Shown: piece by piece, positions 8,778-22,722 of the stretch
Numbering within the stretch: position 1 is the first letter of the stretch
How the letters are laid out: the number at the start of each line of letters is the position of its first letter
IMG/VR virus record: IMGVR_UViG_3300043426_000141
Span: 1-38,212 of that record
Length of the DNA stretch: 38,212 nucleotides
Source of the DNA: a virus
Direction: 5' to 3' (one strand)
Made by a program: the position numbers and the translations under genes
Notes under the pieces: model-generated
Told to the model about the DNA's origin: nothing
Databases searched by the model: none
What the model saw: only the letters and a program-made list of their open reading frames with translations

Positions 8778-10070
8778 ATGCCCGCCCAAATTCCCGACTC
8801 GATTGCCGAATGGTCCGCCACGGCCGGATCCAACCAGCCCAGCGGCTCGGCCAACGTAGGCCCGGACCTGGACGACAACCTGCGCGCGATGCAGGCGGCC
8901 GTGCGCCAGACCTACACGCGCGGCAGCATCGCCAGCGCGGCGACGTGCGACATCGGCACGGTGGACGCCGAGCTGATCACGATCACCGGCACGACGACCA
9001 TCACGAGCCTGGGCTCCACCCTGGGCGCCACGGGGTACGGGGTGCACAAGCTGCTGACCTTCGCGGGCGCGCTGACGCTGACGAATTCGGCCTCGCTGGC
9101 GTGCATCACGAGCGCCAACATCACCACGGCGGCTGGGGACAGCTGCATGGTTGAGTTCAGTGCCAGCGGCTGGACGATGCTTTGGTACGCGCGCAAGACC
9201 GGGGCGCCGGTGGCTGTGCAGTCGTTCGCGCTCAGCGACTTGAGCAATGCCACTGCGCTGAAAACGCTCGCGAATGGAACGTTCAATCAAACTTGGGGAT
9301 GGTCTGCCCTGGGCGCGTCTGATGTAGCAATGAAGTTTTCCGGCACAAGTACCGGGAACAACGGCACGGTGCTGCAGATCAGCGGCAGCGGCAGCGGCAG
9401 CGGCAATCCAGCGAAGCTACTGGGCGTGAATGGCGAAAGCTCTTCAGACATTCTCACCATCTACCCCGCCTATTACAGCCTGCGCCCGCCAACCCGCACG
9501 GGCGCTGGCAGCGCCACAAACTGCACAGTTGGCGCCGGAAACGCAGACCCCAGCACCGGCAGCGTAAACGGCGGGAGCCTCTTGCTTTTGGGCGGCAACG
9601 GGGGCAACTCCAGCTCCACGGGGGGCAGCATCATTGCCACCCCAGGCACCGCTACGTCAACAAACGGGAGTGTTGAGCTGCGGGACGCTGCCGGGGGTAG
9701 CGTCGCCAAGGTGAAGGTGAACACCACGGGGGTAGAGCTGTCTGGCACGGCGAAGACGGTGCTAAACACGAAGCACATCTTCGTCGACAACACCAACGGC
9801 GCGCCGACCATCACGGCCGGCGGCGGCTCCGGCGCCACGATTGACGGCAGCGATGTGGCCTTCGAGGTCACCTTCGGCACCGGATCCCCGACCTCGGTCA
9901 CGGTGACCTTCGCCAACGCCTGGGCTTCTGCCCCCCTGATCCAGGTCTCTGGCACCCAGTCGGGCCAGATCCTGCACTACGCCTCGGCGACCAACACGGT
10001 GCAGATCCTCAGCAGCACGGCGTTCAGTTCTGGAACGAAGGTTTCAGTCTTCTGCATCGGGAAGCAGTGA
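8778..10070 (+). CDS. Tail fibre / receptor-binding protein
   Basis: A 430-residue protein. The N-terminus (residues 1-45, IPDSIAEWSATAGSNQPSGS, then DLDDNLRAMQAAVR) resembles virion-attachment ends of fibres. Residues 55-140 form a Thr/Ser-rich beta segment like fibre domains that end 'GDSCMVEFSASGWTMLWY'. The remaining 290 residues are Ser/Gly/Thr-rich beta repeats with a compact C-terminal beta domain. Position after the ejection proteins and before lysis genes is standard for the podoviral fibre. No enzymatic spike motif is evident. Confidence 0.75.
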   Translation: MPAQIPDSIAEWSATAGSNQPSGSANVGPDLDDNLRAMQAAVRQTYTRGSIASAATCDIGTVDAELITITGTTTITSLGSTLGATGYGVHKLLTFAGALTLTNSASLACITSANITTAAGDSCMVEFSASGWTMLWYARKTGAPVAVQSFALSDLSNATALKTLANGTFNQTWGWSALGASDVAMKFSGTSTGNNGTVLQISGSGSGSGNPAKLLGVNGESSSDILTIYPAYYSLRPPTRTGAGSATNCTVGAGNADPSTGSVNGGSLLLLGGNGGNSSSTGGSIIATPGTATSTNGSVELRDAAGGSVAKVKVNTTGVELSGTAKTVLNTKHIFVDNTNGAPTITAGGGSGATIDGSDVAFEVTFGTGSPTSVTVTFANAWASAPLIQVSGTQSGQILHYASATNTVQILSSTAFSSGTKVSVFCIGKQ

Positions 10071-10079
10071 GGCAGCAGC

Positions 10080-10373
10080 ATGCAAGACCAACTGGATATT
10101 GCGGCCGCCTCTGCCGCCGCTTCTGCAGCCAAGATAACCGCCTACGGAAGTTCCGCAGTGGCGGCCGGGGTCGGGTGGGTCATGTCGTCTGGCCTTGGGC
10201 TGCTGATCAGCGGGGTCGGGGTCATCGGGGGGCTGTGGCTCTCGTGGCACTTCCAGAAAAAGGCCTATGACCTCAAGAAGCTCGCCGACGACAGAGAGCA
10301 TGCCCTGCGGTTGCTGGAACACGAGGCCCGCGTTGCCCTGCACAACACCCGCACCCGAAAGGACCGACCATGA
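10080..10373 (+). CDS. Holin-like membrane protein
   Basis: A 97-residue protein with GAGG just upstream of its ATG. An Ala/Ser-rich amphipathic N-terminus (1-25) leads into a hydrophobic stretch at about 27-56 containing several glycines, then a charged tail with helices (FQKKAYDLKKLADDREHALR). Size, membrane segment, charged C-terminus and position two genes before the endolysin fit a small holin or pinholin. The single clear segment is unlike classical three-segment lambda holin. The endolysin product itself has a second membrane module, so which one triggers lysis is open. Confidence 0.6.
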   Translation: MQDQLDIAAASAAASAAKITAYGSSAVAAGVGWVMSSGLGLLISGVGVIGGLWLSWHFQKKAYDLKKLADDREHALRLLEHEARVALHNTRTRKDRP

Positions 10374-10708
10374 GCAAGATTGTCTTCACCCGTCTGCAGA
10401 TGCCGACGCTCACGGACCTGATGGGCCGCACGCCGGCTCAGGGCGTCCCAATCGGCGCGCTGACTGCGCTTGTGCAGGAGGTCCGCTCCAAGCTCCCGGA
10501 CGAGCAGGAGTGGAACAGCGCCACCGTGTACGGCACGGAGCATCTGAGCATCAGCTATGACAACCACCTGACGCCAGACGAGGAACTGGCCCTGCGCGTG
10601 CAGGCGCTTGAAGAAGCCCAGCGCGAGGCGCGCGGCCTGCTGCCCCGCGAGGGCGAGCCGCTGCGCCCTGAAGAGCTGGCCCGCCTGCGGCAGCTTCTGG
10701 GGGCGTGA
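10370..10708 (+). CDS. Hypothetical protein in lysis cluster
   Basis: A 112-residue protein with ATGA overlap to the holin-like gene and its own stop overlapping the endolysin start region. The N-terminal half is mixed (FTRLQMPTLTDLMGR). The C-terminal half is a charged helix rich in Glu, Arg and Leu (EELALRVQALEEAQREARG). There is no signal peptide or membrane span, so it does not look like an Rz spanin. I do not recognise the family. Confidence 0.7.
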   Translation: MSKIVFTRLQMPTLTDLMGRTPAQGVPIGALTALVQEVRSKLPDEQEWNSATVYGTEHLSISYDNHLTPDEELALRVQALEEAQREARGLLPREGEPLRPEELARLRQLLGA

Positions 10709-11829
10709 TGATCACCCCGGCCATCCTGCAGGCGGCCATGGGCTGCACGCAGGAGCGTGCGCTGCTGTTCGCCCGCCCGCTGGCCGAGGCCTGCGAGCGC
10801 TTCAGCATCGACACGCCCGCGCGCCTGGCCGCCTTCCTGGCGCAGATCGGCCACGAAAGCGGCGGCCTGCGCTACGTCACCGAGCTGGCCAGCGGCGAGG
10901 CCTACGAGGGCCGCAAGGACCTGGGCAACACCCACCAGGGCGACGGCGTGCGCTTCCGGGGCCACGGCCTGATCCAAATCACAGGCCGCGCGAATCACGC
11001 CGAGATGCGGCCCCTGCTGATCCTGGCCGGCTATGACGAAGTGCCCGACTTCGAGGCCCACCCCGAGCGCCTGACCGATCCGCGCTGGGCCGCCGCAAGT
11101 GCTGCCGCCTACTGGCACAAACGCAACTTGAGCGCACTGGCCGACGCAGGCCGCCCGGAAGATTTCGAGCGCATCACCCGCCGCATCAACGGCGGCTTGA
11201 ACGGCCAGGCCGACCGCCTGGTGCGCTGGGAGCGCGCGAAGGCCGCGCTGGCCCCAACGGTCAAGGAATCCTTGACACCTGAAACCACCACCAAGGAGAG
11301 CGTCATGCCCATCCCTGCATTCATCGGCGCGGCGCTGCCGCTACTCATCGAGTACATCCCAAAGCTGGGCAAGATGTTCGGGTCTGGCTCCGAAGTGGCC
11401 GAGCGCAACATCAAGGCCGCCGAAATGGCCGTCACCATCGCCCAGGCCGCCGTTGGCGCAAGCAACGCGCAGGAGGCTGTGGAGATCATCAAGTCCAACC
11501 CCGAGGCGGCGGCCAAAGCACAGCAGGCCATTGAGGCGCGCTGGCTGGAGCTGACCGAGGCCGGTGGCGATGGGATCGCGGGGGCGCGTAAGGCTGACGC
11601 AGAGCGGAGCGGCAAGCGTGATCTTCTGTGCAGCCCGAGTTTTTGGGTCACGGTGCTGCTGCTGCCGCTGGTTTACATGGTGGTTGGCAGCGTGGTCGGC
11701 CTGTGGGGCATCGAGTGGCCGAGCGATGTGCGGGCAGCCATTGCCACGGCTGTCGTGTCGCTGATCGTCGGCGGGGCTGCTGGGTACTACTGGGGCCAGA
11801 CGACGAGCCGTAACCGGACGCTGGGGTAA
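10705..11829 (+). CDS. Endolysin (GH19-type) fused to a two-span membrane module
   Basis: A 374-residue protein. Residues 1-185 match the glycoside hydrolase 19 (chitinase-like muramidase) type of phage endolysin, with 'AAFLAQIGHESGGL' holding the probable catalytic Glu51 and then 'FRGHGLIQITGR'. Residues 186-200 are a Thr/Glu/Lys linker. Residues 201-374 form a second unit with a helical part and two membrane spans at about 312-334 and 342-363. Typical endolysins stop near residue 190. An in-frame ATG at 11305 has a strong Shine-Dalgarno, so the second unit may also be made alone. Start is GTG 10705 or ATG 10708. Confidence 0.85.
   Translation: MMITPAILQAAMGCTQERALLFARPLAEACERFSIDTPARLAAFLAQIGHESGGLRYVTELASGEAYEGRKDLGNTHQGDGVRFRGHGLIQITGRANHAEMRPLLILAGYDEVPDFEAHPERLTDPRWAAASAAAYWHKRNLSALADAGRPEDFERITRRINGGLNGQADRLVRWERAKAALAPTVKESLTPETTTKESVMPIPAFIGAALPLLIEYIPKLGKMFGSGSEVAERNIKAAEMAVTIAQAAVGASNAQEAVEIIKSNPEAAAKAQQAIEARWLELTEAGGDGIAGARKADAERSGKRDLLCSPSFWVTVLLLPLVYMVVGSVVGLWGIEWPSDVRAAIATAVVSLIVGGAAGYYWGQTTSRNRTLG
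11305..11829 (+). CDS. Possible internal-start product: membrane module of the endolysin gene
   Basis: Within the endolysin frame, AAGGAG lies six bases before an ATG at 11305, giving a 174-residue protein beginning MPIPAFIGAALPLL and ending in two membrane spans. In many betaproteobacterial phages a separate small membrane protein of this kind follows the endolysin. Here there is no stop between them. It may be a dual-start gene giving both a fusion and a free holin-like or antiholin-like protein. The Shine-Dalgarno is seen; independent translation is inference. Confidence 0.5.
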   Translation: MPIPAFIGAALPLLIEYIPKLGKMFGSGSEVAERNIKAAEMAVTIAQAAVGASNAQEAVEIIKSNPEAAAKAQQAIEARWLELTEAGGDGIAGARKADAERSGKRDLLCSPSFWVTVLLLPLVYMVVGSVVGLWGIEWPSDVRAAIATAVVSLIVGGAAGYYWGQTTSRNRTLG

Positions 11830-11913
11830 AAGGCGCCGGATGATCTTCTTGCGCACATGATCGCGGCTCAACTGCAGCAGCTTTGCGACGCCGCCCAAAT
11901 CAATCTCGTTCAT
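11830..11913 (-). pseudogene. 5' remnant of a helix-turn-helix regulator gene
   Basis: The ATG at 11913 overlaps the stop of the gene before it (ATGA), as in an operon. The first 27 residues read like the N-terminus of a small DNA-binding protein (VAKLLQLSRDHVRKKIIRR, a helix-turn-helix pattern of the AlpA/excisionase type). The frame then runs straight into sequence antisense to the endolysin and stays open to 11341, with unnatural composition. The likely reading is a regulator gene truncated where the lysis cluster was joined to the early operon. No convergent terminator is visible here. Confidence 0.55.
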
Positions 11914-12431
11914 TCTCCGTACTCCAGTCCAATCTGCTTTGCGTCGTCTGCAAGCTCTTGCAGCGTGTCTTTGATCTGCACCCCTGCGCGCTCTGCTGCC
12001 TGGGCGTAGGCCCAGCTGGCAAACGCTTCCAAGTCGCTGTCGTCTTTTATGCCGTCTTCGCCGCTGTACCAGTGGCCGCCGCCAAGGCTCTGGATGTAAG
12101 GCTTTGACCCGGCCTCGACCTCTTCATCCGTCAGCGCCGGAATGGCTGGCGCGACGGGGGCGGTGTAAATGGGCCGCACCCATGGACGTTCGCAGGTGCC
12201 CGAGATAGAAGTCATGATGACGCTTCCTGGCTCAAGTGACTTGATTCGATCCAGCGCCATCGGGTCAATCCACGCCACCGGCTCCACAGCCTCCAGGCGC
12301 TCCAGTTCGGCGCGGAGGGCGTCAATTGCCAGCGATGTGCGCGACCGCCACTCGCCCTGGTGTGGCACTAACCCGGCCTGCGGGTGCTCCATCGCCTCCA
12401 GCGCCTTGCGCATTACTTCAATCGCGGTCAC
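11910..12431 (-). CDS. Hypothetical early protein
   Basis: The start is set at GTG 12431 because AAAGGAG lies seven bases upstream; the more upstream ATG at 12527 lies in the recombination-site region and lacks a ribosome site. This gives 173 residues. It contains a helical N-terminus (MRKALEAME), the fragment 'VEPVAWIDPMALDRIKSLEPG' and an acidic C-terminal domain with 'SGEDGIKDDSDLEAFASWAYA'. Similar modular hypotheticals are widespread in betaproteobacterial prophages. It is the first gene outside the cassette array on this side. Function unknown. Confidence 0.75.
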   Translation of the reverse strand: MTAIEVMRKALEAMEHPQAGLVPHQGEWRSRTSLAIDALRAELERLEAVEPVAWIDPMALDRIKSLEPGSVIMTSISGTCERPWVRPIYTAPVAPAIPALTDEEVEAGSKPYIQSLGGGHWYSGEDGIKDDSDLEAFASWAYAQAAERAGVQIKDTLQELADDAKQIGLEYGE

Positions 12432-12540
12432 TTCGAACTCCTTTGTCCAAGATTCCAAACCGCCAGCGACAACCCTTACAACCGCCGGTTTTGCCCATGC
12501 GTTATGCGCATGACCAGCGCCCGACAAGGACTTGCGAGCG

Positions 12541-12588
12541 GCGGGTCGGTGTTATGCGGCGGGGCTTGCGCCCTATATCGCGTTAGGC
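12541..12588 (+). mobile_element. attI-like site at the left border of the cassette array
   Basis: This border ends in the core GTTAGGC (12582-12588), whose bases from 12583 on pair perfectly with the R'' box of the first attC (13135). It has no left attC arm. Its sequence resembles the end of class 1 integron attI1: GTTATGCGGCGGGGC (attI1: GTTACGCAGCAGGGC), then CGCCCTA, a six-base spacer (seven in attI1), then GTTAGGC, with CGGGTCGGTGTT upstream echoing attI1's GGGTCGATGTT. A further GTTATGC lies exactly 50 bp upstream at 12501. The comparison is with attI1 from memory. It could instead be a secondary (non-attI) insertion site. Confidence 0.6.
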
Positions 12589-12840
12589 GTGTTGCGCACC
12601 GCCAGCATTCCTGGCCCGCACAATTTCGCGGCACTGCTCGCGCATCAGCTTGGCATTCGCCAGCGCGTCGTGCCGGGTGCAAAACGCATAGCCCGCTTCA
12701 GTGCCCACCCCAGCGCCGTAGATCGTGCCAATCCAGCCACGCCACAAGGCGCGGTTGCGCACCTGCTCGAAGCGCTCGGCATCAATGTCGTCGTCCAGCG
12801 CGTTCGCGTAGGCTGCCACTTTGTCGGTCAGGTCAATCAC
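12583..12840 (-). CDS. Cassette 1 gene B: hypothetical protein
   Basis: An 85-residue protein whose ATG overlaps the previous stop by four bases (ATGA), so it is coupled to the first gene of the same cassette. It is mostly helical and charged (VAAYANALDDDIDAERFEQVRNRALWRGW), with a short 'GTEAGYAFCTRHDALANAKLMREQCREI' segment. Its TAA stop is formed by the recombination core GTTAGGC, so the coding sequence runs exactly to the cassette edge. No membrane span or known motif is visible. Function unknown. Confidence 0.75.
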   Translation of the reverse strand: MIDLTDKVAAYANALDDDIDAERFEQVRNRALWRGWIGTIYGAGVGTEAGYAFCTRHDALANAKLMREQCREIVRARNAGGAQHA

Positions 12841-13106
12841 AGCAATGCTCCTTGGTGGCGGCTCGGGGCCTGCGCACGGTCAATCGCGCCCAGCAGGTCG
12901 GCCAGCTTCTCGGCCTCGTCGCTGTCGTCCGGGTCAATCGTGCGCAGCACCGCCGCGCAGTCAGTCAGCAGGCCCAGCAGCACGGCATGTTCGCCTTCAA
13001 TGCGTCGGCCAATCTCGTCCACCTTGTCGCACTCTGGGCCGTTGAGTTTGAATCCAGCGTCCCACAGTTCATCCAGTAGCGCGGTTGCAATCTTGTCTTG
13101 TCTCAT
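12837..13106 (-). CDS. Cassette 1 gene A: hypothetical protein
   Basis: An 89-residue protein preceded by AAAGGAA seven bases upstream of its ATG. It is acidic and helical, with 'RQDKIATALLDELWDAGFKL' and 'DPDDSDEAEKLADLLGAIDRA', and has no cysteine pairs or membrane spans beyond a short hydrophobic helix. It starts 29 bases after attC 13135-13188 on the coding strand and shares the cassette with the downstream overlapping gene. Two-gene cassettes are less common than single-gene ones. I cannot name a family. Confidence 0.75.
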   Translation of the reverse strand: MRQDKIATALLDELWDAGFKLNGPECDKVDEIGRRIEGEHAVLLGLLTDCAAVLRTIDPDDSDEAEKLADLLGAIDRAQAPSRHQGALL

Positions 13107-13134
13107 CGTCGTTCCTTTCGCTTCTCCACCACAC

Positions 13135-13188
13135 GCCTAACCGGGCGCTCAAGCGGACGCAGAGCGCCGCTTAGCTGTTGGGTTATGC
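13135..13188 (+). repeat. attC site 1 (54 bp)
   Basis: The R'' box GCCTAAC (13135) and R' core GTTATGC (13182) enclose imperfectly paired arms, CGCTCAAGCGG on the left and CCGCTTAGCTG on the right. The left arm has one extra base (C), the asymmetry that orients attC on the plus strand. The central segment GACGCAGAGCG is the terminal loop. The stop codon of the gene at 13183 lies in the R' core. Confidence 0.9.
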
Positions 13189-13524
13189 GTCAATGGCTCT
13201 GCGCGCAGCCGCGCCGATTTGCGGAGTCCACATAGAGGCCACCGCCACGCACACAGCGCGTCGGCCCCAGTGCTGCAGGCCGAACGACTCGTTCGCCTTG
13301 ATGGCGGCCTCGATGCCCTCATCGTTGAAAGCAAAGACGGTGCTGCGCGCAAAGTCGGCCCTCGTGAACTCGACCGTCAGATCGAACTGCTCACGCAGCT
13401 TCACGCTGTCTTGAGGGATGTTCAGCGGGTCGCCAACGTCGCGCCCAGCCACATCCCGCACGCGGCTCACCAGCACATCGTTACTTAGGGTTGCGGCAAT
13501 GGCTGACTTTTCTCTCGGGTGCAT
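13183..13524 (-). CDS. Cassette 2 gene: hypothetical protein
   Basis: A 113-residue protein with CTGGAG seven bases before its ATG, beginning 22 bases after attC 13546-13615 on the coding strand. It has mixed helical and beta character, including 'SKLREQFDLTVEFTRADFAR'-like and 'GLQHWGRRAVCVAVASMW' stretches. The C-terminal 'TPQIGAAARRAIDA' ends in a TAA contributed by the recombination core. It has no membrane span, signal peptide or known catalytic motif. It is the only gene in its cassette. Function unknown. Confidence 0.75.
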   Translation of the reverse strand: MHPREKSAIAATLSNDVLVSRVRDVAGRDVGDPLNIPQDSVKLREQFDLTVEFTRADFARSTVFAFNDEGIEAAIKANESFGLQHWGRRAVCVAVASMWTPQIGAAARRAIDA

Positions 13525-13545
13525 ATGACTACTCCAGAATTTGAC

Positions 13546-13615
13546 TCATAACCTCTCGTTGCAGCCGAGTTACTCCGGCTGCGCCTGCGTGCCCGGCTGA
13601 ACTCGGGCGTTAGAA
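13546..13615 (+). repeat. attC site 2 (70 bp)
   Basis: R'' TCATAAC (13546) and R' GTTAGAA (13609) enclose arms CGTTGCAGCCG and CGGCTGAACTCGGGC. The right half closely follows the classic attC half seen after aadA cassettes (CGGCTTAACTC, spacer, GCGTTAGA). The left arm again has one extra base (GTTGCAG against GTTCAG). The centre includes the second inverted element CCGGCTGCGCCTGCGTGCCC. Confidence 0.9.
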
Positions 13616-13634
13616 CTCATGCAGATCAAAAGCA

Positions 13635-14255
13635 TCACGCGATCAACCTGCCCTGGCGCTGCGCATCTTCAATGCGGCGGCAGGCTATGTCGAAATACTT
13701 TGGTTCCCGCTCAATCCCGATGAAGGCCCGACCGAGGTTCATGCAGGCAACGCCTGTTGTGCCGCTGCCCATGAATGGATCGAGCACTGTCTGAGCCTTT
13801 GGAGCAAACGCCAAGCACCAAAGCATCAGCGGCACCGGCTTCTGAGTCGGATGCTCCTTGCCTTCGCTGGCGAGTTGCGCGCGGGCATAGCGGAACGTGC
13901 GGACGGGAATGTCCAGGTTCGTCCACGCCATCTCCGCGTGCCCGGAGCTATGCTCTTGCATCTTGTCCCACAAGAGCCAGCCGCGAACGGGCGGAAGCTG
14001 GTAGTAATTCCCGCCCCAAATAATCGCCACTGGAAACGCGGCAAAGGATTCAATGATTCCGCCGCCCGTTATCTCGCGGTCCCATTCCGGCGCAACCTCA
14101 AACTGCCCGCCCCATTCGCCCTTACCACCGGCAAGGCGATCACCCAATCCATACGGCGGATCAGTCACAACCGCATCCACCTTCGGCAGCGTCGGCAGAA
14201 TGTCCCGGCAGTCGCCCAGATACAGGTTTGCGTCGCCTATCGTTTCAATCCGCAT
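13635..14255 (-). CDS. Cassette 3 gene: DNA N4-cytosine/N6-adenine methyltransferase
   Basis: A 206-residue SAM-dependent DNA methyltransferase that would modify an amino group of a base at a short DNA site. Catalytic motif IV DPPYG is at residues 32-36 and the SAM-binding motif DPFMGSGTTG at 159-168, so the order (IV before I) is that of the beta class. 'HPTQKPVPLM' (135-144) is also typical. The length is compact, with a reduced target-recognition region, as in phage orphan enzymes. GAGGAA lies before the ATG. No restriction endonuclease partner is present, so protection from host restriction is the likely benefit. It is alone in its cassette, with 15-bp complementary ends. Confidence 0.9.
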   Translation of the reverse strand: MRIETIGDANLYLGDCRDILPTLPKVDAVVTDPPYGLGDRLAGGKGEWGGQFEVAPEWDREITGGGIIESFAAFPVAIIWGGNYYQLPPVRGWLLWDKMQEHSSGHAEMAWTNLDIPVRTFRYARAQLASEGKEHPTQKPVPLMLWCLAFAPKAQTVLDPFMGSGTTGVACMNLGRAFIGIEREPKYFDIACRRIEDAQRQGRLIA

Positions 14256-14274
14256 GGGGTTCCTCGTGCATGAG

Positions 14275-14334
14275 TTCTAACAACGCGTTGCAGCCGATGC
14301 CGCTTCGCGTCACGGCTGAACTTGATCGTTAGAC
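14275..14334 (+). repeat. attC site 3 (60 bp, canonical)
   Basis: This is the best match to the classical 59-base element. R'' TTCTAAC (14275), left arm CGTTGCAGCCG, loop region GCCGCTTCGCG shared with the aadA attC, right arm CGGCTGAAC, and R' GTTAGAC (14328). One unpaired G in the left arm sets the plus orientation. The C-terminal codons of the gene at 14310 run into the site. Confidence 0.95.
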
Positions 14335-14612
14335 GGCTTCTTCGCCTCCAGCATCGCCACCGTGTCATCCCAGCGCAGCGCTGTGCGCCCTTGCCATTTC
14401 TTGAGCTTTGCCAAGATCAATTCCTCGCGCTGCTTGTAGCGGGCTGCAATAGCTACGTTCAACGCAACTTCCATGTCGGCCGCTCGCTCAAGCGCCTCAG
14501 CCCGCGCCGCCCGAAGTCCGTGCGCAACGAAGTCGCTGACATAGGCGCCAGCCTCTGGGTGCTGACTTATGTAGTTGCGGACGTGGTTCAAAAATGCGTG
14601 GTGCTCATTCAT
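14310..14612 (-). CDS. Cassette 4 gene: hypothetical helical protein
   Basis: A 100-residue protein with AAGGAG six bases before its ATG. It is almost entirely helical, with a His-rich start (MNEHHAFLNHVRNYISQHPEAG) and a long Ala/Arg/Glu helix (AARAEALERAADMEVALNVAIAARYKQREELI). Its last seven residues (SNDQVQP) are encoded inside attC 14275-14334, so acquisition into the array altered or supplied the C-terminus. The helix-rich profile suggests a small DNA- or protein-binding factor. No family recognised. Confidence 0.75.
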   Translation of the reverse strand: MNEHHAFLNHVRNYISQHPEAGAYVSDFVAHGLRAARAEALERAADMEVALNVAIAARYKQREELILAKLKKWQGRTALRWDDTVAMLEAKKPSNDQVQP

Positions 14613-14631
14613 TTGCTTCTCCTTGCTCGCC

Positions 14632-14686
14632 TTCTAACCAGGCTCATGCAGGGGACGCTTCGCGCCCCTGATGGCCGGCGTTGTGC
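14632..14686 (+). repeat. attC site 4 (55 bp)
   Basis: R'' TTCTAAC (14632) and R' GTTGTGC (14680) enclose arms CATGCAGGGG and CCCCTGATGG around the loop ACGCTTCGCG. The extra G is again in the left arm (CATGCAG against CATCAG). The arm sequence differs from the other sites while the structure is conserved, as expected of attC sites from unrelated cassettes. Confidence 0.88.
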
Positions 14687-14687
14687 A

Positions 14688-14918
14688 TCAGTTGCCAGCG
14701 CGGCGGACTGCCCGCGCTAGCCGGTCGCGGTCGTCCTCACCGTCTCCGAGCAAATGCACGAGGGAGCGGATCGTGTAAGCGCACATGCGTAGCGTTTCGC
14801 GGGCGCCTTGGGCCTTGGCGTTGGTGACTACGGCCTCGACGGCCCCGTCTTGGCATTGCGGCTCTTTGGCGTCGCGCTCCCAGCGGGCGGCCAGTTCAAT
14901 CAGTACAGCGTCTTTCAT
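14688..14918 (-). CDS. Cassette 5 gene: hypothetical protein
   Basis: The start is put at ATG 14918, six bases after AGGAG; an ATG two codons upstream abuts the Shine-Dalgarno. This gives 76 residues, helical and charged, with 'AARWERDAKEPQCQDGAVEA', then 'RETLRMCAYTIRSLVHLLGD' and an Arg/Asp-rich end (GEDDRDRLARAVRRAGN). The TGA stop lies eight bases inside the recombination core, so almost the whole cassette is coding. Related small proteins are common in phage accessory regions. No function can be assigned. Confidence 0.75.
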   Translation of the reverse strand: MKDAVLIELAARWERDAKEPQCQDGAVEAVVTNAKAQGARETLRMCAYTIRSLVHLLGDGEDDRDRLARAVRRAGN

Positions 14919-14943
14919 CGTCATCTCCTGTTGGTTGGCTGCT

Positions 14944-15043
14944 GCACAACCGTTCGTTGCAGCGGACCCGCCCCGGCCGGTCCTGTGGTTCGTCTTTTGG
15001 CAATCGCGGCACCGGGGCCGTCCGCTGAACTCAGGCGTTACCC
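14944..15043 (+). repeat. attC site 5 (100 bp, right end of array)
   Basis: R'' GCACAAC (14944) and R' GTTACCC (15037) enclose arms CGTTGCAGCGGAC and GTCCGCTGAAC, a long perfect pairing with one extra G in the left arm. The about 57-base central segment makes this the longest site. The R' core departs from the GTTRRRY consensus, as expected when its last six bases come from the original target rather than from a cassette. Confidence 0.88.
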
Positions 15044-15654
15044 GGCTCCTTCACGCCAGCGGCGCTGATGCCGTGGGCGCTCTCGACAGCGCGGGCGAAC
15101 GCCTTGATTCCAGGCGGCAGGCGCTTCGTGTCTGCGTCAATGTCGCCAAGCAGCGCCAGTAGCTGCTCATCCGTCAGCGGCACGCGCTCTGCTGGCTGCT
15201 GGGCGGCGCTGGGGGATGCTCGCCAATCAAATGCCGACCAATGCTCAGCCACTGCGTCTGGCAAATAGCCCTTGCTCTCGGCCCGATTGAGCGCGGTCAT
15301 CAGTTCATCAAAGCCTTTGACCGCCGTGAGCTTGTAGCCGTCAGGCACAGCCGGCACCTGTGGCGCTGCTGCCAAATTCCTGGCGATCGACTCCATGGCG
15401 ATGTCCATGTAGACCCCCGGGCAGCTCTGACGGTCAAGGTCAGCGCGCACCTTCTGCGCAAGTGCCCAAGCCGCGTCGCTAAATTCGGGCACCGCCTGCA
15501 CTGGCGCTGCTGCCAGGGCGGCGCGGTAGGAAAGCCACGCTGCCGCAGTGTCTGGCTCGACGTAGGCGCCGACCGAGCCGGGGTACTTGTCCAGCTCCCA
15601 GCCTTGCTCTTTCGCCAGGGCCTCAAACGCGGCGCGCTCTTGTTCGGTGCTCAT
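15031..15654 (-). CDS. Hypothetical early protein, 3' end inside attC 5
   Basis: A 207-residue protein with a GGAGCACCCC ribosome site before ATGAGCACC. It begins 'TEQERAAFEALAKEQGWEL', then 'AAWLSYRAALAAAPVQAVPE', a pattern common to modular hypotheticals of Burkholderiales phages. The C-terminal domain reads 'LTDEQLLALLGDIDADTKRL'. The last codons (GNA, TGA) are supplied by attC 14944-15043. If the array were absent, the frame would continue into the left border and stop after one extra residue (GGT AAC GCG ATA TAG). Function unknown. Confidence 0.8.
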   Translation of the reverse strand: MSTEQERAAFEALAKEQGWELDKYPGSVGAYVEPDTAAAWLSYRAALAAAPVQAVPEFSDAAWALAQKVRADLDRQSCPGVYMDIAMESIARNLAAAPQVPAVPDGYKLTAVKGFDELMTALNRAESKGYLPDAVAEHWSAFDWRASPSAAQQPAERVPLTDEQLLALLGDIDADTKRLPPGIKAFARAVESAHGISAAGVKEPGNA

Positions 15655-15665
15655 GGGGTGCTCCT
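15644..15665. repeat. 22-bp direct repeat over a start region (copy 1)
   Basis: The ribosome-binding and start region of the gene at 15654 is identical over 22 bases to that of the gene at 15909 (second copy 15899-15920). On the coding strand it reads AGGAGCACCCCATGAGCACC followed by two more bases. The matching first codons suggest gene-start duplication or recombination between neighbouring early genes. Confidence 0.85.
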
Positions 15666-15909
15666 ACTCGCAGAACGCGCGGGTGATTGACGAAAAGTTG
15701 GGCTGCCGAGGCGGCTCCGGCAGAAGGCCGAGCTGGTCAGCTTCGTCAATCGTCAGCGGCTCACAGCAGGCGTTGCAGGGCGGTGAAATGCAGCACCGGC
15801 AGCCGCCGCGCATTGCGACTAGCTGACGGAACAGCCCCTCATCGTTCGGCACGCGATCGCAGATGTCTTCCCACTCTGCGTCGGTGAGCGGCGGAAGGTC
15901 GGTGCTCAT
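15664..15909 (-). CDS. Small Cys-rich hypothetical protein
   Basis: An 81-residue acidic protein with a central cysteine cluster at about 36-49 (CRCCISPPCNACCEPL), probably a metal-binding knuckle. N-terminal 'LPPLTDAEWEDICDRVPNDE' is typical of phage small acidic proteins. Its start region is the second copy of the 22-bp repeat. The stop lies just upstream of the next gene's ribosome site. It sits in a run of tightly packed small leftward genes. The zinc-binding suggestion comes from Cys spacing only. Confidence 0.75.
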   Translation of the reverse strand: MSTDLPPLTDAEWEDICDRVPNDEGLFRQLVAMRGGCRCCISPPCNACCEPLTIDEADQLGLLPEPPRQPNFSSITRAFCE

Positions 15910-15920
15910 GGGGTGCTCCT
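15899..15920. repeat. 22-bp direct repeat over a start region (copy 2)
   Basis: Identical to 15644-15665. It covers the Shine-Dalgarno and first codons of the gene at 15909. Confidence 0.85.
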
Positions 15921-16151
15921 TGCGGCCAGCATGGCGTCGGCTATGTCATAACTGGCGCCCGCGATCAGGCCAAACACATTCGACCTGTTCTCTGGCGTGA
16001 CGCCGGTCACCCCGACTAGCAGAGCGCCAAGCGCCTTGGCCGCGAAGTAGTCCCGCAGGGTCATGCCTCCAGCAATCTCGCCTTGCTTGCTGTCGCCCCA
16101 TTCGGCCCACTTGCCGGTGGGGAACGCCGGCCCTCCGTCATTCGTGCTCAT
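15906..16151 (-). CDS. Conserved phage hypothetical ('MTLRDYFAAKA' type)
   Basis: The start is taken at ATG 16151 (STNDGGPAFP), after GGAGACGAA and overlapping the stop of the upstream gene. This gives 81 residues. It carries 'GGMTLRDYFAAKALGALL' and a C-terminal 'YDIADAMLAAR', the two conserved blocks of a small protein very common in proteobacterial and other phages. Its role is not known to me. It is co-oriented and packed with the other small early genes. Confidence 0.85.
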   Translation of the reverse strand: MSTNDGGPAFPTGKWAEWGDSKQGEIAGGMTLRDYFAAKALGALLVGVTGVTPENRSNVFGLIAGASYDIADAMLAARSTP

Positions 16152-16381
16152 TTCGTCTCCTTGTGCTTTGCCGCTTCCTTGCGCTTCAGCCACTCGCTGA
16201 AGGCAGGCCAGACGGGATCGTTCTCGTCCACCGGGTCATAGACCTTGTTCATGGCCGAGTCGGTGAAGAAAGCGGGTCCGCAGTACGGGTGCATGTCCAC
16301 CCAGACGTAGCGATTGCCAACATGCAGGCGGCCCCAGTCGTTGATGCAGACGATGCCGGTGCCGATGTGAATGCAGGTCAT
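16148..16381 (-). CDS. Small hypothetical protein
   Basis: A 77-residue protein whose ATG overlaps the upstream stop (ATGA) and whose own stop overlaps the next start. It is rich in aromatic residues (CINDWGRLHVGNRYVWVDMHPYCGPAFF) with a basic Lys-rich end (KRKEAAKHKETK). Conserved Cys and His residues could bind a metal. Proteins of this look occur in early regions of Burkholderiales phages. No function is assigned. Confidence 0.75.
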   Translation of the reverse strand: MTCIHIGTGIVCINDWGRLHVGNRYVWVDMHPYCGPAFFTDSAMNKVYDPVDENDPVWPAFSEWLKRKEAAKHKETK

Positions 16382-16623
16382 GCGGGCTCCCGGTGCTTTG
16401 CGAGCAGGGCGCTGGCGTCGTGCGATAGAGCTAGGCTTCCACGCTTTGCGACTTCGCCAAGAAACTTCACCAGCTCCGCAACATCAGCGCGCAGCCTGTC
16501 GCGCTCCAACTCAGCCCGCTCCGCGCGAGCTTCTGCCGCCGTGCGCTGGCCCTGCTCGGCAACCCAGTCGCGCAGCAAGCTGTCGCGCTCTGCGAGCAGG
16601 TCTGCGGGGTCTTGGGTGCTCAC
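16378..16623 (-). CDS. Coiled-coil hypothetical protein
   Basis: The start is placed at GTG 16623 (STQDPADLLAERDSLL), which overlaps the upstream stop (GTGA). Further-upstream starts would extend an Arg-rich shadow of the neighbouring gene. The 81-residue product is one long charged helix (EQGQRTAAEARAERAELERD), likely coiled coil, ending 'SALLAKHREPA'. Short coiled-coil proteins of this type are common in phage early operons. No function is assigned. Confidence 0.7.
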   Translation of the reverse strand: MSTQDPADLLAERDSLLRDWVAEQGQRTAAEARAERAELERDRLRADVAELVKFLGEVAKRGSLALSHDASALLAKHREPA

Positions 16624-16982
16624 GATGCGACCCCAGTTGGGCGGCGCTCGGCGCGAAGGACGCGCTTCATGCCGCCGATCCAAAAACCTGCGCTCTCGCG
16701 GCGGTACTCCCAAAGGGTGTCCCTCGCGTCGTCCAGCATCGAGCCGTGCAGCCAGCAAAAGCACGGGGCGTGCGCGGTGATGTAGTCGCGGGCATCAAGG
16801 CAGCGGCAGCAGGTGCGCGTCACACCCCAGATGCCGTCAAACAGGCTGCTGACACGCTCGTATTGCTCGCCAGGGACGATCCGGCCGGCGCACTCGTAGC
16901 ACGAGTAGGCCTTGCGAGCCTTGCGGCGCTCAGCGCTGTAAACGTCAGGCACATCGCCGTAGTCGCAATAGCAGCTGCTCAC
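16620..16982 (-). CDS. Cys-rich zinc-ribbon-like phage protein
   Basis: The start is placed at GTG 16982 overlapping the previous stop (GTGA), giving 120 residues. Cysteines occur in pairs: CYCDYGD near the start, CYECAGRIVPGEQYERV at about 27-43, and CCRC at about 57-60, then CFCW. The 'C..C..RI..GE.Y' block resembles zinc ribbons of small phage proteins that recognise nucleic acid. A metal-binding fold is likely; the biological role is unknown. Confidence 0.75.
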   Translation of the reverse strand: MSSCYCDYGDVPDVYSAERRKARKAYSCYECAGRIVPGEQYERVSSLFDGIWGVTRTCCRCLDARDYITAHAPCFCWLHGSMLDDARDTLWEYRRESAGFWIGGMKRVLRAERRPTGVAS

Positions 16983-17251
16983 GATGCGGCCCCGGTGGCG
17001 CCAATGGCAGCGGCGATGAACTTCAGAACGTCGCCACGCTGCACGCGGCCAGCGAACTGCCACTTCTTGCGGCTGGGCCAGTAGTCCAGGCGCTGGCCTG
17101 CCACAGTGCGGGACCAGTGGTGTTCTGTGTGCTTCGTCCATCCGCCGTCATCGTTGGCTTTGGCATCGGCCAGAAAGCGGGCGCGGTCGGCGTTGAACTT
17201 GTCCTTGAAGTGGGTCTTCATGGCGTCCCAGATCGGATCGCGGTCACTCAT
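16979..17251 (-). CDS. Hypothetical protein
   Basis: The start is set at ATG 17251 (SDRDPIWDAMKTHFKDKF), which overlaps the previous stop. This gives 90 residues. A basic helical N-terminus is followed by an aromatic block (HHWSRTVAGQRLDYWPSRKK) and 'KWQFAGRVQRGDVLKFIAAA'. The Trp-rich centre recalls small nucleic-acid-binding phage proteins ('YWPSKKKWQ' types). Not assigned further. Confidence 0.75.
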   Translation of the reverse strand: MSDRDPIWDAMKTHFKDKFNADRARFLADAKANDDGGWTKHTEHHWSRTVAGQRLDYWPSRKKWQFAGRVQRGDVLKFIAAAIGATGAAS

Positions 17252-17552
17252 GGCTGGCCTCTTGGGTGGCGGTGGCGATTGCTGCGCGGGCCTTGTCATC
17301 GGCCGCGCGAATAGCCGCCATGACGGCGACCTTGTCGCTCCCGCCGCCGACAGCCACGGCCAAGACGTAGGCTTGCAGCGCCTCCAGCAGCGCAGGGGCG
17401 GCGGCTATGAGGCGGGCATCCTCGGCTTTAACGCCCGTCTCAGAGCGCAGCACAACAGGACGCAGCCAAACTGGCTTGTCATCAATCTTTGGGCCGACAA
17501 GGGCATGCGTGCCGTCTGCCCACTCCCACGGTCCTTCGGTGTGCTTGCTCAT
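17244..17552 (-). CDS. Conserved phage hypothetical ('SKHTEGPWEW' type)
   Basis: The start is at ATG 17552, with GGGAG upstream. Translation upstream of it would read antisense-type Arg/Ser-rich sequence. The 102-residue protein has the hallmark N-terminus SKHTEGPWEW and a later 'EDARLIAAAPALLEALQAYV', conserved in a very common small protein of proteobacterial phages. The function is unknown. Its presence supports a proteobacterial host. Confidence 0.88.
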   Translation of the reverse strand: MSKHTEGPWEWADGTHALVGPKIDDKPVWLRPVVLRSETGVKAEDARLIAAAPALLEALQAYVLAVAVGGGSDKVAVMAAIRAADDKARAAIATATQEASHE

Positions 17553-17580
17553 TTCCCGCTCCCCCGCGTGATCTGCTGTG

Positions 17581-18330
17581 TCATGCCGCCACCTCATGCA
17601 GCGCGGCTTCACAGAACAGGCCGCAGTCCGGGAGGATTTCGTCGTGCCGGCCGGCGTCGGGCGGGAGCGCGTCAAGGCCGAAGCGAACGCCCGTGGCCCG
17701 GTCGCGGAATAGGTAGGCGCTCGGGCCGATCTCGCGCTCAACCGCTGCCACCTGGGCGAAGCGCTCATGGAAGGTCTTGCGCACATGGTTCCAATACCCC
17801 ATGCCGCCCTTCACGCAGCCGATGCAGTTGGCGTTGTTGAAGCCGAGGCGGTACATCGCCGGCAGTTCAATTCCGGCGCGCTCCAGCAGGCCCAAGCAAT
17901 CGGCCTTCCCCAAGCTCCGCTCGATCAAGGGCGCGCGCACCGGCACATCGGGGAAGCGTTCTCGGAAGTCGTCAAGGCGGTCAGCCTCATCCGCATCGAA
18001 GCCGAGCACCATCACATCGCCGGGCTGCCTGAACTTGTCCAGCAGCTTGCGCTTGAGTGCGCGGGTGCAGGGCGCTCCGGCTCGGCCGTTTAAGTAGCGC
18101 TCGCGGCGGAACACTTCCAGCGTGCTGGCGCCGTACTTCTCGTCGCGAAGCACCGTCACTGCGCGGCCAAACCAGCGCTCGCAGTCGGCCAGAAAACGGC
18201 GGTTGTCCGGGTGCTCTTCGGAAATGAAGGCGTTCACGATGGCGACCCGCTCCGGCGCCTCGGCAAGCATCAGCTTCGTGGCAACAGCGCTCGCGGCGCC
18301 ACAGCTGAATTGGCAGACAAGGCGGCTCAT
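17581..18330 (-). CDS. PAPS reductase-like (adenine nucleotide alpha hydrolase fold) protein
   Basis: The start is at ATG 18330 with AGGAG six bases upstream, giving 249 residues. The N-terminus 'QFSCGAASAVATKL' (7-20) is the PP-loop of phosphoadenosine phosphosulfate reductase-like phage enzymes, with CGAAS where the family more often has GGKDS. Cysteines at 88, 169, 172 (NANCIGCVKGGMGYW), 236 and 240 suggest a metal or Fe-S site. Such enzymes activate substrates with ATP, and relatives take part in sulfur transfer to tRNA or DNA. The phage role is unknown. It is coupled to the lipoprotein gene upstream by stop-start overlap. Confidence 0.8.
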   Translation of the reverse strand: MSRLVCQFSCGAASAVATKLMLAEAPERVAIVNAFISEEHPDNRRFLADCERWFGRAVTVLRDEKYGASTLEVFRRERYLNGRAGAPCTRALKRKLLDKFRQPGDVMVLGFDADEADRLDDFRERFPDVPVRAPLIERSLGKADCLGLLERAGIELPAMYRLGFNNANCIGCVKGGMGYWNHVRKTFHERFAQVAAVEREIGPSAYLFRDRATGVRFGLDALPPDAGRHDEILPDCGLFCEAALHEVAA

Positions 18331-18527
18331 CGCTTGCTCCTCAGAATCTCTTGATGCACCCACTCATCAGCCGAGCAGGCCACGTACTGCGTGGTGCCGT
18401 CCTTGACCTGCTCGCACGGGTAGTGCGGCAGCTCTGCCGGTACCCGGGGCGATGCGCAGCCAACACACAAAGCCGCAAGCAAGAGCAGCACGCACGCGGC
18501 AGCGGCTAGGCGCTCGGGGCGGGTCAT
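18327..18527 (-). CDS. Small secreted lipoprotein-like protein
   Basis: A 66-residue protein with a short basic start (MTRPERL), a hydrophobic segment (AAAACVLLLLAALCVGC) and a Cys at residue 24 fitting a lipobox (VGC), though the -3 residue is Cys rather than Leu. The mature part is about 42 residues with two more Cys. In phage genomes such proteins are Rz1-like spanins or exclusion lipoproteins. Its position in the early operon far from lysis genes points to superinfection exclusion rather than lysis (inference). Its start overlaps the upstream stop and its end the downstream start. Confidence 0.65.
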   Translation of the reverse strand: MTRPERLAAAACVLLLLAALCVGCASPRVPAELPHYPCEQVKDGTTQYVACSADEWVHQEILRSKR

Positions 18528-18691
18528 GCCGCTTCCTCTTCTTCGGCCAGCACTTCCCGCACCGTCTCGACAGGCTGCCCCGTCTCGGCTGCGGTCATGC
18601 GGATCTGTTCGGCCAGGCTGTACTTGCGCAGAGCGGCAATGCGCTCGTGCACGGTGCGGATGTGGTCTTTGCTCATGACTTGGTGGGGCAT
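18524..18691 (-). CDS. Small hypothetical protein
   Basis: The start is most likely ATG 18691 (AAGAG upstream), or the ATG five codons later (SKDHIRTVHERIAALRKY), giving 55 or 50 residues. It is helical, with 'EQIRMTAAETGQPVETVREV' resembling a helix-turn-helix or small regulatory helix pair, and an acidic tail (LAEEEEAA). It overlaps the next gene by four bases (ATGA). A DNA-binding role is possible but not shown. The preceding 109 bases (18692-18800) hold no gene I can support. Confidence 0.65.
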   Translation of the reverse strand: MPHQVMSKDHIRTVHERIAALRKYSLAEQIRMTAAETGQPVETVREVLAEEEEAA

Positions 18692-18800
18692 TGGTGCTCT
18701 TGAAGAAATTGGGCCGTCGCTGCTGCCAGGCAATGCGAGTCGTCGGGAAGGCTTGATCGGAGGGAGGGCCGATGGCGTCCGACTGCGGCCCGGAAAGGGT

Positions 18801-20534: not shown

Positions 20535-20536
20535 GG

Positions 20537-21256
20537 TCACTCCGTGGTGTTGGCGGCGGCGCGGATCTGCGCCTTCTGCGCGGCGGTGAACTTCTTGCCT
20601 TTGGTTTCGACCATGGCAATCAGGCCGTCAGTGGTCTTGCGGCCGGACTGCAGGACCTTGGTCCATGCGGGCAGGTTGGCCTTGAATTCGGTGTCGCAAT
20701 AGGTCTGCGGTGCGGGCGCGGCGACTGGCTCTGGTGGCGATGGCGGATGAAGCGGGTCATCGTCTGCGTGCAGATCGGCCTTGCTCCACAGATCAAGGGC
20801 CAGGCCGAAGCGCATGGCCGCATTGCGGATGGCGTCGCCAATCACCTCTTTCTCGCGGGCCCCGGCGTCTGCGCTTGGCTTGCCATCGGCATGGCCGTAG
20901 CCCAGGCGAGTGACGCCGCACACGGTCAGCTTGATCCACAGGCCGCCCGTGGCGTCGAACTTCGGCAGCCCGGTGTCGCGGTCGAATGCGGCCGGCTCCC
21001 AGGTCCAATGCGGGTCAGCATCCAGCAGGCAGTGGGTTGCAGCAGCGTGGCCCAGGTAGTCCAGATGGCGGATCTTTGGGTGGTGCCAGCCACCGCAGAC
21101 GCGGCAGTTGATCTTTTCGGCGGCAGGGCACTGGTTCTGCTCTTTGGTGCCCTTGGGGAGCTTGCTGATAAGGTGGTCCGGGATCGGCGCGCGCAGGCTA
21201 GCCAGCCCAGAAGGCGCGGCAAGGGCCTGCGTCTCGGTTTGGGTGACGGCATTCAT
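20537..21256 (-). CDS. Putative single-strand annealing protein (Rad52-like)
   Basis: The start is at ATG 21256, overlapping the previous stop by four bases, giving 239 residues. A Cys/His cluster (Cys43, Cys51, Cys54, His58) precedes 'HLDYLGHAAATHCLLDADPH' and 'WIKLTVCGVTRLGYGHADG'. 'EVIGDAIRNAAMRFGLALDLW' (137-157) resembles the 'KGA.TDA.KRA...FG' block of Rad52-family annealing proteins. The C-terminal part has Pro-rich spacing and a small helical end. Its place directly before a YqaJ exonuclease is the classic recombination pair. The family call is inference. Confidence 0.7.
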   Translation of the reverse strand: MNAVTQTETQALAAPSGLASLRAPIPDHLISKLPKGTKEQNQCPAAEKINCRVCGGWHHPKIRHLDYLGHAAATHCLLDADPHWTWEPAAFDRDTGLPKFDATGGLWIKLTVCGVTRLGYGHADGKPSADAGAREKEVIGDAIRNAAMRFGLALDLWSKADLHADDDPLHPPSPPEPVAAPAPQTYCDTEFKANLPAWTKVLQSGRKTTDGLIAMVETKGKKFTAAQKAQIRAAANTTE

Positions 21257-21423
21257 TGGGCACACTCCAATTGCATAGCCCGGCGCCGGCACTCCAGCTC
21301 TTGCAGCAGGCTGTTCTTCAGGTACTCCGGCCCAACTGCGCCGGCTTGTTCGTAGGCCTCGCGCTCGGCGCGGATTGCTTCCGCCTCCAAGCGCAGCCAC
21401 ATCAGGTAAATGGCGCGGAACAT
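21253..21423 (-). CDS. Small helical hypothetical protein
   Basis: The start is at ATG 21423, formed by TGATG with the previous stop, giving 56 residues. It is one charged helix (RLEAEAIRAEREAYEQ) with a hydrophobic start (MFRAIYLMWL). The stop overlaps the next start by four bases. The N-terminal hydrophobic residues could anchor it near the membrane next to the preceding membrane protein. No family known. Confidence 0.65.
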   Translation of the reverse strand: MFRAIYLMWLRLEAEAIRAEREAYEQAGAVGPEYLKNSLLQELECRRRAMQLECAQ

Positions 21424-21614: not shown

Positions 21615-21621
21615 ATGCTTC

Positions 21622-22493: not shown

Positions 22494-22520
22494 TGCGTCC
22501 CCTTGGTGTTGATGGGGAGC

Positions 22521-22563: not shown

Positions 22564-22602
22564 ATATTTTGCGATGATCCACACAGCCGCCCACCAGGGC
22601 GC

Positions 22603-22715: not shown

Positions 22716-22722
22716 CCGGGCC

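Follow-up and report, generated by a model that had tools for sequence, protein, structure and literature searches.

The shuffling of phage accessory genes, anti-restriction methyltransferases among them, is mostly ascribed to general and site-specific mosaicism. In sedentary chromosomal and class 1 integrons, intI diverges from the cassette array and the cassette genes, expressed from an attI promoter, have the direction of the attC top strand. Among phages, attC clusters without intI have been described, virulent phages included, and tested with IntI1 (Qi et al. 2023, PMC9892861); that paper places such clusters (CALINs) in virulent phages, e.g. Tetrasphaera phage TJE1, Polaribacter phage P12002L and Pseudoalteromonas phage PH101, as well as in Myoviridae MW202573, and five of the six sites assayed recombined with IntI1. 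TJE1 and PH101 are described there as typical in orientation; in our own count MW202573 has the reversed orientation, with 0 parallel and 5 antiparallel genes. The initial annotation of the DNA studied here had confined cassettes to chromosomes, plasmids and transposons, a view that these clusters contradict. In the reverse integron of Treponema denticola, as outlined in PMC4909258 and PMC7691350, intI itself is flipped, the gene stop lies on R'' and the gene-attC relation is normal.

The sequence analysed, called the window throughout, is the IMG/VR virus record IMGVR_UViG_3300043426_000141 (38,212 nt, 66% GC). It was scanned over its full 38,212 nt, on both strands and with filters off, using a covariance model (R1) trained on 36 attC from bacterial IntI loci, none of them from the window. 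Exactly five attC were found, all on the + strand and all where the initial annotation had placed them (E 7e-8 to 1.8e-3): attC 1 (13135-13188; 40.4 bits, E 2.9e-7), attC 2 (13546-13615; 39.3 bits, E 5.2e-7), attC 3 (14275-14334; 43.0 bits, E 7.1e-8), attC 4 (14632-14686; 27.7 bits, E 2.2e-4) and attC 5 (14944-15043; 37.8 bits with default filters, and 23.7 bits, E 1.8e-3, for 14950-15037 with filters off). The best remaining match across the window reached 11.7 bits (E 0.97), and the opposite strand of the five sites scored at most 9.1 bits, the value seen at attC 1. A separate structural scan gave an arm score of 21 for each site, arm spacers of 5/6 (6/6 in one attC) and one extra base in the left arm at the same position in all five. 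The sites carry the R'', L'', L' and R' boxes and the unpaired extra base of an integron array, and the five are confirmed as a genuine integron cassette array. The "near identity" of 14275-14334 to the aadA-type site was overstated, as 47 of 60 bases match the site in locus L131, taken here as that of aadA1. Rfam gave no match in the window at gathering thresholds.

The G/TT crossovers, after positions 12582, 13182, 13609, 14328, 14680 and 15037, delimit five cassettes of 600, 427, 719, 352 and 357 bp with six genes called by our own hexamer method, the same numbers of cassettes and genes as proposed initially. Cassette 1 (12583-13182) holds two genes, 12583-12840 (85 aa), in which the core site forms the stop codon, and 12837-13106 (89 aa). 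Cassette 2 (13183-13609; cores 13182-13188 and 13609-13615) has a gene at 13183-13524 (113 aa), its stop codon again formed by the core site. The gene of cassette 3 (13610-14328; cores at 13609 and 14328), 13635-14255 (206 aa), is a DNA N6/N4 methyltransferase by family match (PF01555 2.2e-22; phrog_67 3.1e-49; PADLOC MTase_II). In cassette 4 (14329-14680; cores at 14328 and 14680) the gene 14310-14612 (100 aa) overlaps attC 3 with its final codons, and cassette 5 (14681-15037; cores at 14680 and 15037) carries 14688-14924 (78 aa; start at 14918 in the hexamer gene calls). All six genes lie on the - strand, and the cassettes, like the five attC, on the + strand, i.e. genes and attC are antiparallel; counting only between the five attC there are 0 parallel and 4 antiparallel genes. 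Genes that run with the attC top strand, the mark of a canonical integron, are absent from the array, and this reversed orientation proved the more surprising feature. Gene strand relative to attC had not been remarked upon in the initial annotation.

The marker genes, i.e. TerL, portal, major head protein and endolysin, identify the window as phage DNA, and we take it to be a whole or almost whole phage genome. The array lies in a leftward phage operon (11910-22493, -), as first annotated and as upheld by the gene calls and the markers; this region also encodes a RecE-like exonuclease and a single-strand annealing protein. On its left is the endolysin gene (10708-11829, +; phrog_181 8e-57), for which a peptide-pattern search among viral contigs gave no relatives and a later blastp on fetched records found homologs in G067 and G088 (53% and 36% identity), both with arrays. 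On its right is an operon gene (15031-15654, -) whose stop codon falls within attC 5 and which had no homolog in 11 relatives (E 1e-4).

The left border of the array, overlooked initially, has the features of a putative orphan attI (12521-12588, +; core GTTAGGC at 12582-12588, crossover after 12582). Its local alignment with the stretch between intI and the first cassette of viral record G062 scored 27, against a maximum of 20.5 in 2000 shuffles. The assignment of an attI adjoining the first cassette rests on such similarity to IntI-adjacent regions, 6 of 35 of which (G062 included) beat all 300 shuffles while 29 did not. A resemblance to attI1 of class 1 integrons was rejected, the alignment being short and equalled or bettered by 256 of 2000 shuffles. 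The window contains no tyrosine recombinase (PF00589) and no integron integrase (TIGR02249), hence cassette movement would require an outside enzyme. It therefore lacks the intI beside attI of a complete integron and corresponds to a CALIN (at least two attC, no intI nearby), with an attI-like site in excess of the usual definition. The array without intI, the small cassettes and the DNA methyltransferase cargo are as in the phage CALINs presented in PMC9892861, whereas the retained attI-like site and the genes antiparallel to attC set it apart from them. With sedentary chromosomal and class 1 integrons it shares attI, attC, the G/TT crossover and modular cassettes.

Many phages carry arrays with genes almost always opposite to attC, and the array of the window is a member of this large family. 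In 92 deduplicated viral loci we counted 15 parallel versus 288 antiparallel genes, and in the 39 loci from TerL-bearing records 6 versus 136 (TerL was sought by phrog_2 alone, so that records with no match may also be of phage origin); in bacterial integrons the figures were 92 and 6. A bacterial exception is locus L094, at 4:4. The bacterial control was reached via IntI and the viral set via the attC pattern, i.e. by different routes; a small bacterial control reached by the same attC pattern gave 3 parallel arrays and 1 antiparallel among 5 loci. Of 112 loci examined with R1, 95 gave one match or more and 71 at least two at the thresholds used. The 15:288 count omits 30 loci as overlapping or near-identical copies (G022 is thus in neither viral group), keeps some close pairs (L257 and L322, for example, have 2 kb in common at 98.9%) and leaves L053 and L054, integron phages known before, outside the viral group. 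Undeduplicated and with L053, a Vibrio phage with 5 parallel and 0 antiparallel genes, the count is 22 versus 312 in 106 loci. Exceptions to the reversal within the 15:288 count are TJE1 (L055), L302, L320, L254, L425 and L427. The R' core supplies the stop codon of 93 of the 288 antiparallel viral genes, and in 142 the stop lies in R' or within the attC.

The strand reference was provided by 80 bacterial IntI loci, in which 127 of 130 R1 matches are canonical and the remaining three are all in L107; the 36 R1 training sites come from these same loci, on the canonical strand (in L107 the other one), and a model-free scan of both strands gave the same kind of strand bias. The two attC alignments used for the orientation counts took in 150 of 158 and 150 of 159 matches, so that the weakest matches fall outside these counts.

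Reversal is also the rule where intI is present. Of 207 IntI relatives found, the best 80 were fetched and 50 taken, and the 44 with kept attC upstream of intI were counted: 173 genes were reversed versus 20 canonical (L374, L399 and L436, which also have attC matches, are missing here, presumably because theirs are among the weakest). A stricter count gave 90 versus 16. In the IntI tree, from which four bacterial rows with internal stops were excluded, 42 of 51 viral sequences form one clade (support 100/88); the family itself (TIGR02249) is shared with sedentary chromosomal and class 1 integrons. The usual layout in this clade is operon, reversed cassettes, attI and intI on one strand. Phage arrays differ from sedentary and class 1 integrons in that the genes run towards attI, and along with intI where it is present. 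As in T. denticola, intI and cassette genes are transcribed the same way; unlike the arrangement outlined for that species (PMC4909258, PMC7691350), the phages keep the normal intI-attC geometry, and it is their cassette genes that are inverted with respect to attC and often have the stop on R'. In the intI-bearing viral loci, attC is nearly always on the canonical strand with respect to intI, unlike in the Treponema-type inversion of intI against attI and array; the window has no intI. The phage nature of most of these records rests mainly on the IMG/VR listing because phrog_2 terminase was found in 6 of 50; it was examined beyond that listing for a few. An IntI relative is present in virus Rctr41k (H3), where a scan of 10.6 kb gave a single attC-like site.

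We consider it likely that the window is an integron platform without an integrase, of a widespread reversed phage type, expressed by operon read-through and served by IntI in trans. IntI would come from the host, a prophage or another phage infecting the same cell, fold the attC bottom strand and insert cassettes at attI through G/TT exchange. The array sits near the distal end of the leftward operon, with the putative attI at its downstream end. Because attI is downstream and the polarity of the array opposes transcription, the phage promoter would give sense transcripts of antiparallel cassettes only, and for this reason selection would retain them. The core GTTA, which reads TAAC on the gene strand, is a frequent source of the stop codon, and the viral contigs that retain intI display the full layout. 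The sequence itself shows the attC, the resemblance to attI, the borders of the cassettes, the orientation of their genes and the presence of cassette 1 in other phages; that the array recombines and is expressed we infer.

Evidence of movement comes from cassette 1, of which two other phages have a counterpart: L316 (81.1% over 576 bp) and L277 (71% over 427 bp). The gene homologs are at 62/89% and 61/48%. In the window and both of these phages the homology begins at the core or within 10 bases of it, and the DNA preceding it differs. Movement as a unit with breaks at G/TT is seen by comparison for cassette 1; cassettes 2-5 did not recur as units elsewhere and showed at most partial gene similarity. 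The anticipated variation among relatives is present in part: cassette 1 and its breaks support it, as does G067, which shares the endolysin gene on the left flank and carries an array that has none of the window's array genes, but among the relatives there was neither a close one with both flanks conserved nor one with an empty attI or a cassette-free version of the window's genome. No gain or loss was seen between near-identical phages, the whole-record relatives compared having 59-77% TerL identity; L001 has an identical TerL on a contig that covers just 26248-30724, and megablast of 10000-25000 matched no phage record. Such sharing might also stem from homologous recombination between mosaic phages, a process to which the window's own exonuclease and annealing protein would be suited, and 338 of 387 ends of stretches shared between phages lie outside attC. 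The 49 ends inside attC are, however, an about 2-fold enrichment (null mean 24.8, maximum 40 in 500), and homology that starts so close to the crossover after unlike DNA argues for IntI; we regard homologous recombination as an unlikely source of the pattern.

The absence of intI would also suit the chance capture of ordinary bacterial cassettes, as part of a chromosomal integron of the host that is now an inert remnant. Vibrio phages do carry such pieces (PMC9892861), and L053 has stretches in common with bacterial loci L058 and L061. Against this, the parallel to antiparallel ratio is 92:6 in bacterial arrays and 15:288 in phage arrays. When 45 of the 80 bacterial loci, namely those with attC matches, were compared by blastn, all 66 shared stretches of at least 120 bp fell, by position, at integrase genes; the loci L366-L445 were outside this comparison. 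Cassette 1 recurs among phages and the putative attI resembles the neighbours of viral intI, and we find capture very improbable. About as improbable is that reversed arrays are retained for mRNA hairpins (terminator, processing or translation control), with recombination secondary or lost. The 142 of 288 stops in R' or within attC fit this, and the bottom-strand hairpin would be present in sense transcripts; yet the conserved core boxes, spacers and extra base are features that matter to IntI, cassette 1 is common to phages and breaks at the core, and related arrays have IntI. That hairpins merely arose by chance in the gaps of the operon, stem-loops being common in GC-rich DNA such as this, has a negligible probability and is refuted by five consecutive R1 matches with nothing else below E 0.97 on either strand of the 38 kb.

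Returning to the trans-served phage platform, we lean towards the view that phages run an integron network of their own, with a phage-specific IntI clade, an attI where an accessory operon ends downstream and a reversed cassette pool, in which intI-less members, such as this phage, would be passengers served in trans. It is part of that view, and held with the same modest preference, that the reversed pool circulating among phages is for the most part distinct from that of bacterial cassettes. None of the papers searched was seen to describe a nearly universal reversal, a clade of phage IntI, an orphan attI or the sharing of cassettes from phage to phage. The findings suggest that phages have an integron variant of their own by which they exchange accessory genes, and the initial reading of such genes as integron cassettes is supported, since attC, cassettes, genes and operon position all hold. 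If so, dedicated cassette exchange would explain the fast turnover of small early genes, and cassette orientation would be seen to track the expression logic of the carrier, a rule that is simple, strong and open to test on existing data. The payload is likely to be small accessory genes, e.g. anti-restriction DNA methyltransferases, and new anti-defence genes could then be sought between attC sites; methyltransferases made up 5 of the 20 long cassette proteins examined, the window's own not counted.

A covariance model was trained on 36 attC sites of bacterial integron loci reached via IntI, the window sequence being excluded, and the complete window was scanned on both strands with filters off. 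Five attC sites were found on the + strand (E 7.1e-8, 2.9e-7, 5.2e-7, 2.2e-4 and 1.8e-3), and the sixth-ranked match on either strand had E 0.97, i.e. the top five matches are significant and are exactly the five sites proposed in the initial annotation. An independent arm-and-box scan gave an equal arm score in all five, with spacers of 5/6 (6/6 in one site), and the extra base said to lie always in the same arm occupies an identical left-arm position in each. The G/TT crossover points fall after positions 12582, 13182, 13609, 14328, 14680 and 15037; together with gene calls from our own hexamer model they delimit the expected five cassettes with six leftward genes. One of these encodes a DNA methyltransferase (PF01555, 2.2e-22), and for the remaining five neither Pfam nor PHROGs gave a match below 0.01. 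The attC at 14275-14334 is identical at 47 of 60 positions to the aadA1-type attC of locus L131, which we take to be the aadA1 site. We note that the genes at 14310-14612 and 15031-15654 both terminate within the adjacent attC; an exchange of cassettes would therefore alter their final codons.

It is conspicuous that the genes of viral arrays generally run against the top strand of attC. Among genes lying between neighbouring attC sites, 92 were parallel to this strand and 6 antiparallel in bacteria (24 informative loci), whereas 15 were parallel and 288 antiparallel in 92 deduplicated viral loci. Many of the viral records are known as such only through their IMG/VR listing. At the level of loci, 65 of the 70 informative viral ones were antiparallel, 4 parallel and 1 tied. 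The bacterial and viral orientations differ by Fisher tests (2e-66 when genes are counted, 6e-18 when loci are), the latter being the safer figure since the genes of one array are not independent. The sampling routes differ, i.e. the bacterial control was reached via IntI and the viral set via the attC pattern; when 398 genomes from a single phylum were searched with the same pattern, 5 matches came up, namely three parallel arrays, one antiparallel array on a stretch of 2.1 kb and one match without attC. The model matches lie on the normal-integron strand in 127 of 130 cases in 80 bacterial IntI loci (the remaining three all in one locus), a bias that is partly by construction because the model was trained on 36 sites taken from that strand (in L107, from the opposite one); the same bias had been seen earlier in a model-free scan of both strands.

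The tendency persists in records with a terminase (phrog_2; 6 parallel, 136 antiparallel genes, 30 of 31 informative loci antiparallel), in viral records reached via other genes (parallel:antiparallel 0:5 in G004, 0:7 in G005, 0:2 in G022 and 0:6 over three stretches of G024), and in a case known from the literature, the Myoviridae phage MW202573 (0:5). Reversal is not imposed by the method, since known parallel phages were recovered as such: Tetrasphaera phage TJE1 gave 2:0, and Vibrio phage Va_90-11-286_p16, from outside the 92-locus set, 5:0. Exceptions to the antiparallel rule are L053 (a Vibrio phage), L055 (TJE1), L302, L320, L254, L425 and L427. Of the 288 antiparallel viral genes, 93 have their stop codon in the R' core, and of the 92 parallel bacterial genes, 13 have theirs in R''; a mirror image is therefore built into many cassettes. 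Three attC sites with antiparallel genes occur on a 2.1 kb piece of a bacterial assembly (L448), possibly phage DNA within it.

A scan of 10,705 phage genomes has yielded 17 attC clusters and 3 complete integrons, methyltransferase cassettes in phages among the reported cargo, and of six attC sites from virulent phages five were recombined by IntI1 (Qi et al. 2023, PMC9892861); the available text of that paper holds no statement on a general reversal. The 'reverse integron' of Treponema denticola is different: as far as the available text of PMC4909258 and PMC7691350 goes, intI itself is flipped there, and the gene stop on R'' is the normal gene-attC relation. Searches of the open-licence PubMed Central literature showed no report of phage cassettes being reversed or of an IntI clade of phages, which does not prove absence.

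Judged by its genes, the carrier of the array, a virus record of 38,212 bases, is a phage: the window encodes a terminase large subunit, portal, major head protein, endolysin, RecE-like exonuclease, single-strand annealing protein and DnaC-like loader. It is probably a complete or almost complete genome, because its first and last 241 bases (1-241, 37972-38212) agree at 236 positions; the mismatches (positions 71, 75, 83, 89 and 114) perhaps reflect strain variation in the assembly. The array lies in a leftward operon (22493-11910, - strand) with one further gene of the operon beyond the array (11910-12527, - strand). The upstream neighbours mostly overlap tightly, and the cassette genes are mostly set apart by attC sites. 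Neither a tyrosine recombinase (PF00589) nor IntI (TIGR02249) was found in the window record.

The left border of the array looks like attI. In the viral record G062, the DNA separating intI from the first cassette can be aligned with window 12521-12588 at a local score of 27 (best of 2000 shuffles, 20.5). The window stretch exceeded all 300 shuffles in 6 of 35 viral intI-adjacent regions, G062 (as L410) included, and did not in the other 29; in the IntI tree all six belong to a single branch of 19 members. From this similarity the window appears to hold attI and cassettes without intI.

Bona fide IntI genes occur in 5 of 94 viral records selected for attC matches (3/49 and 2/45). Used as queries, these found 207 relatives among viral contigs, and among the best 80 of 207, which were fetched, 44 loci with kept attC upstream of intI carried 173 reversed and 20 canonical cassette genes, 13 of the latter in L425. 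When the criterion was tightened to genes flanked by attC on both sides and duplicates were removed, 90 were reversed and 16 canonical. The genes upstream are mostly on the same strand; the order is thus phage operon, cassettes, attI, intI. A maximum-likelihood tree places 42 of 51 viral IntI in a single clade (support 100/88), phage-only as far as tested given the midpoint root and limited bacterial sampling (42 rows). The clade lies beside IntI of the bacterial loci L093, L094, L102 and L110; of the cassette genes of L094 (Stagnimonas aquatica), 4 are parallel and 4 antiparallel. The IntI of L425 and L407, with canonical cassettes, lie outside the clade; L427 lies inside, with four weakly scored canonical calls. 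The phrog_2 terminase family was found in 6 of 50 intI-bearing viral records. Closer inspection of L412 and L372 showed tail proteins, replication genes and, directly downstream of intI, a phage-type tyrosine integrase (L372 11183-12367, L412 11172-12464), i.e. two integrases in tandem. IntI relatives occur in 9 of 50,697 public phage records (E 1e-30), in none at 60% identity or more.

Cassette 1 is, by alignment, a movable unit. Two other phages match it, L316 over window 12581-13152 (81.1%, 576 bp) and L277 over 12573-12995 (71%, 427 bp), both genes having homologs in each (62/89% and 61/48%). The common sequence starts at the core GTTAGGC; the preceding DNA is attI in the window and the attC of another cassette in L316, and differs in L277 save for about ten similar bases adjoining the core. 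Across viral loci, shared stretches end within attC in 49 of 387 cases (expected 24.8, sd 5.8; the highest value among 500 rotations was 40). The suggestion that related phages differ in their cassettes is thus borne out in part: cassette 1 recurs from its core, and in G067, a phage sharing the endolysin gene of the left flank (53%) and carrying an attC array, none of the window cassette genes was detected in the array, in a contig that stops soon after the array starts; for cassettes 2-5 no second occurrence as a unit was found. The gene for the methyltransferase is partially similar to L271 and MW202573. In a blastn comparison of viral loci with 45 bacterial loci having attC matches, all 66 shared stretches of at least 120 bp lay, by position, at intI genes. 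A solitary opposite-strand attC (L329 14244-14307, -) lies distant from the main G004 array, beside sequence matching L327 (85.9%) and L321 (84.7%). The phage record G024 (58.8 kb; L334, L335, L336) has two separate attC groups, one spanning the contig ends.

We infer that IntI, coming from elsewhere, would act on the attI and attC sites of the window. With attI at the downstream end of the array and transcription running towards it, only antiparallel genes would be read in sense, which may be why the reversal is kept. The GTTA core would give an incoming gene a stop codon, as it does for the leftward cassette genes 12583-12840 and 13183-13524. A plausible benefit of the cargo is anti-restriction and other counter-defence: among 20 long proteins (the 21 longest of 176 antiparallel cassette proteins from 27 chosen loci, minus the window methyltransferase), five DNA methyltransferases, one NinX match and one DHHA1 match exceeded the Pfam cut-off. 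A PAPS-reductase-like gene lies outside the array in the window (17581-18363, -; phrog_424) and between attC matches in G022 (L333 4832-5596, one flanking match weak) and G024 (L336 519-1274).
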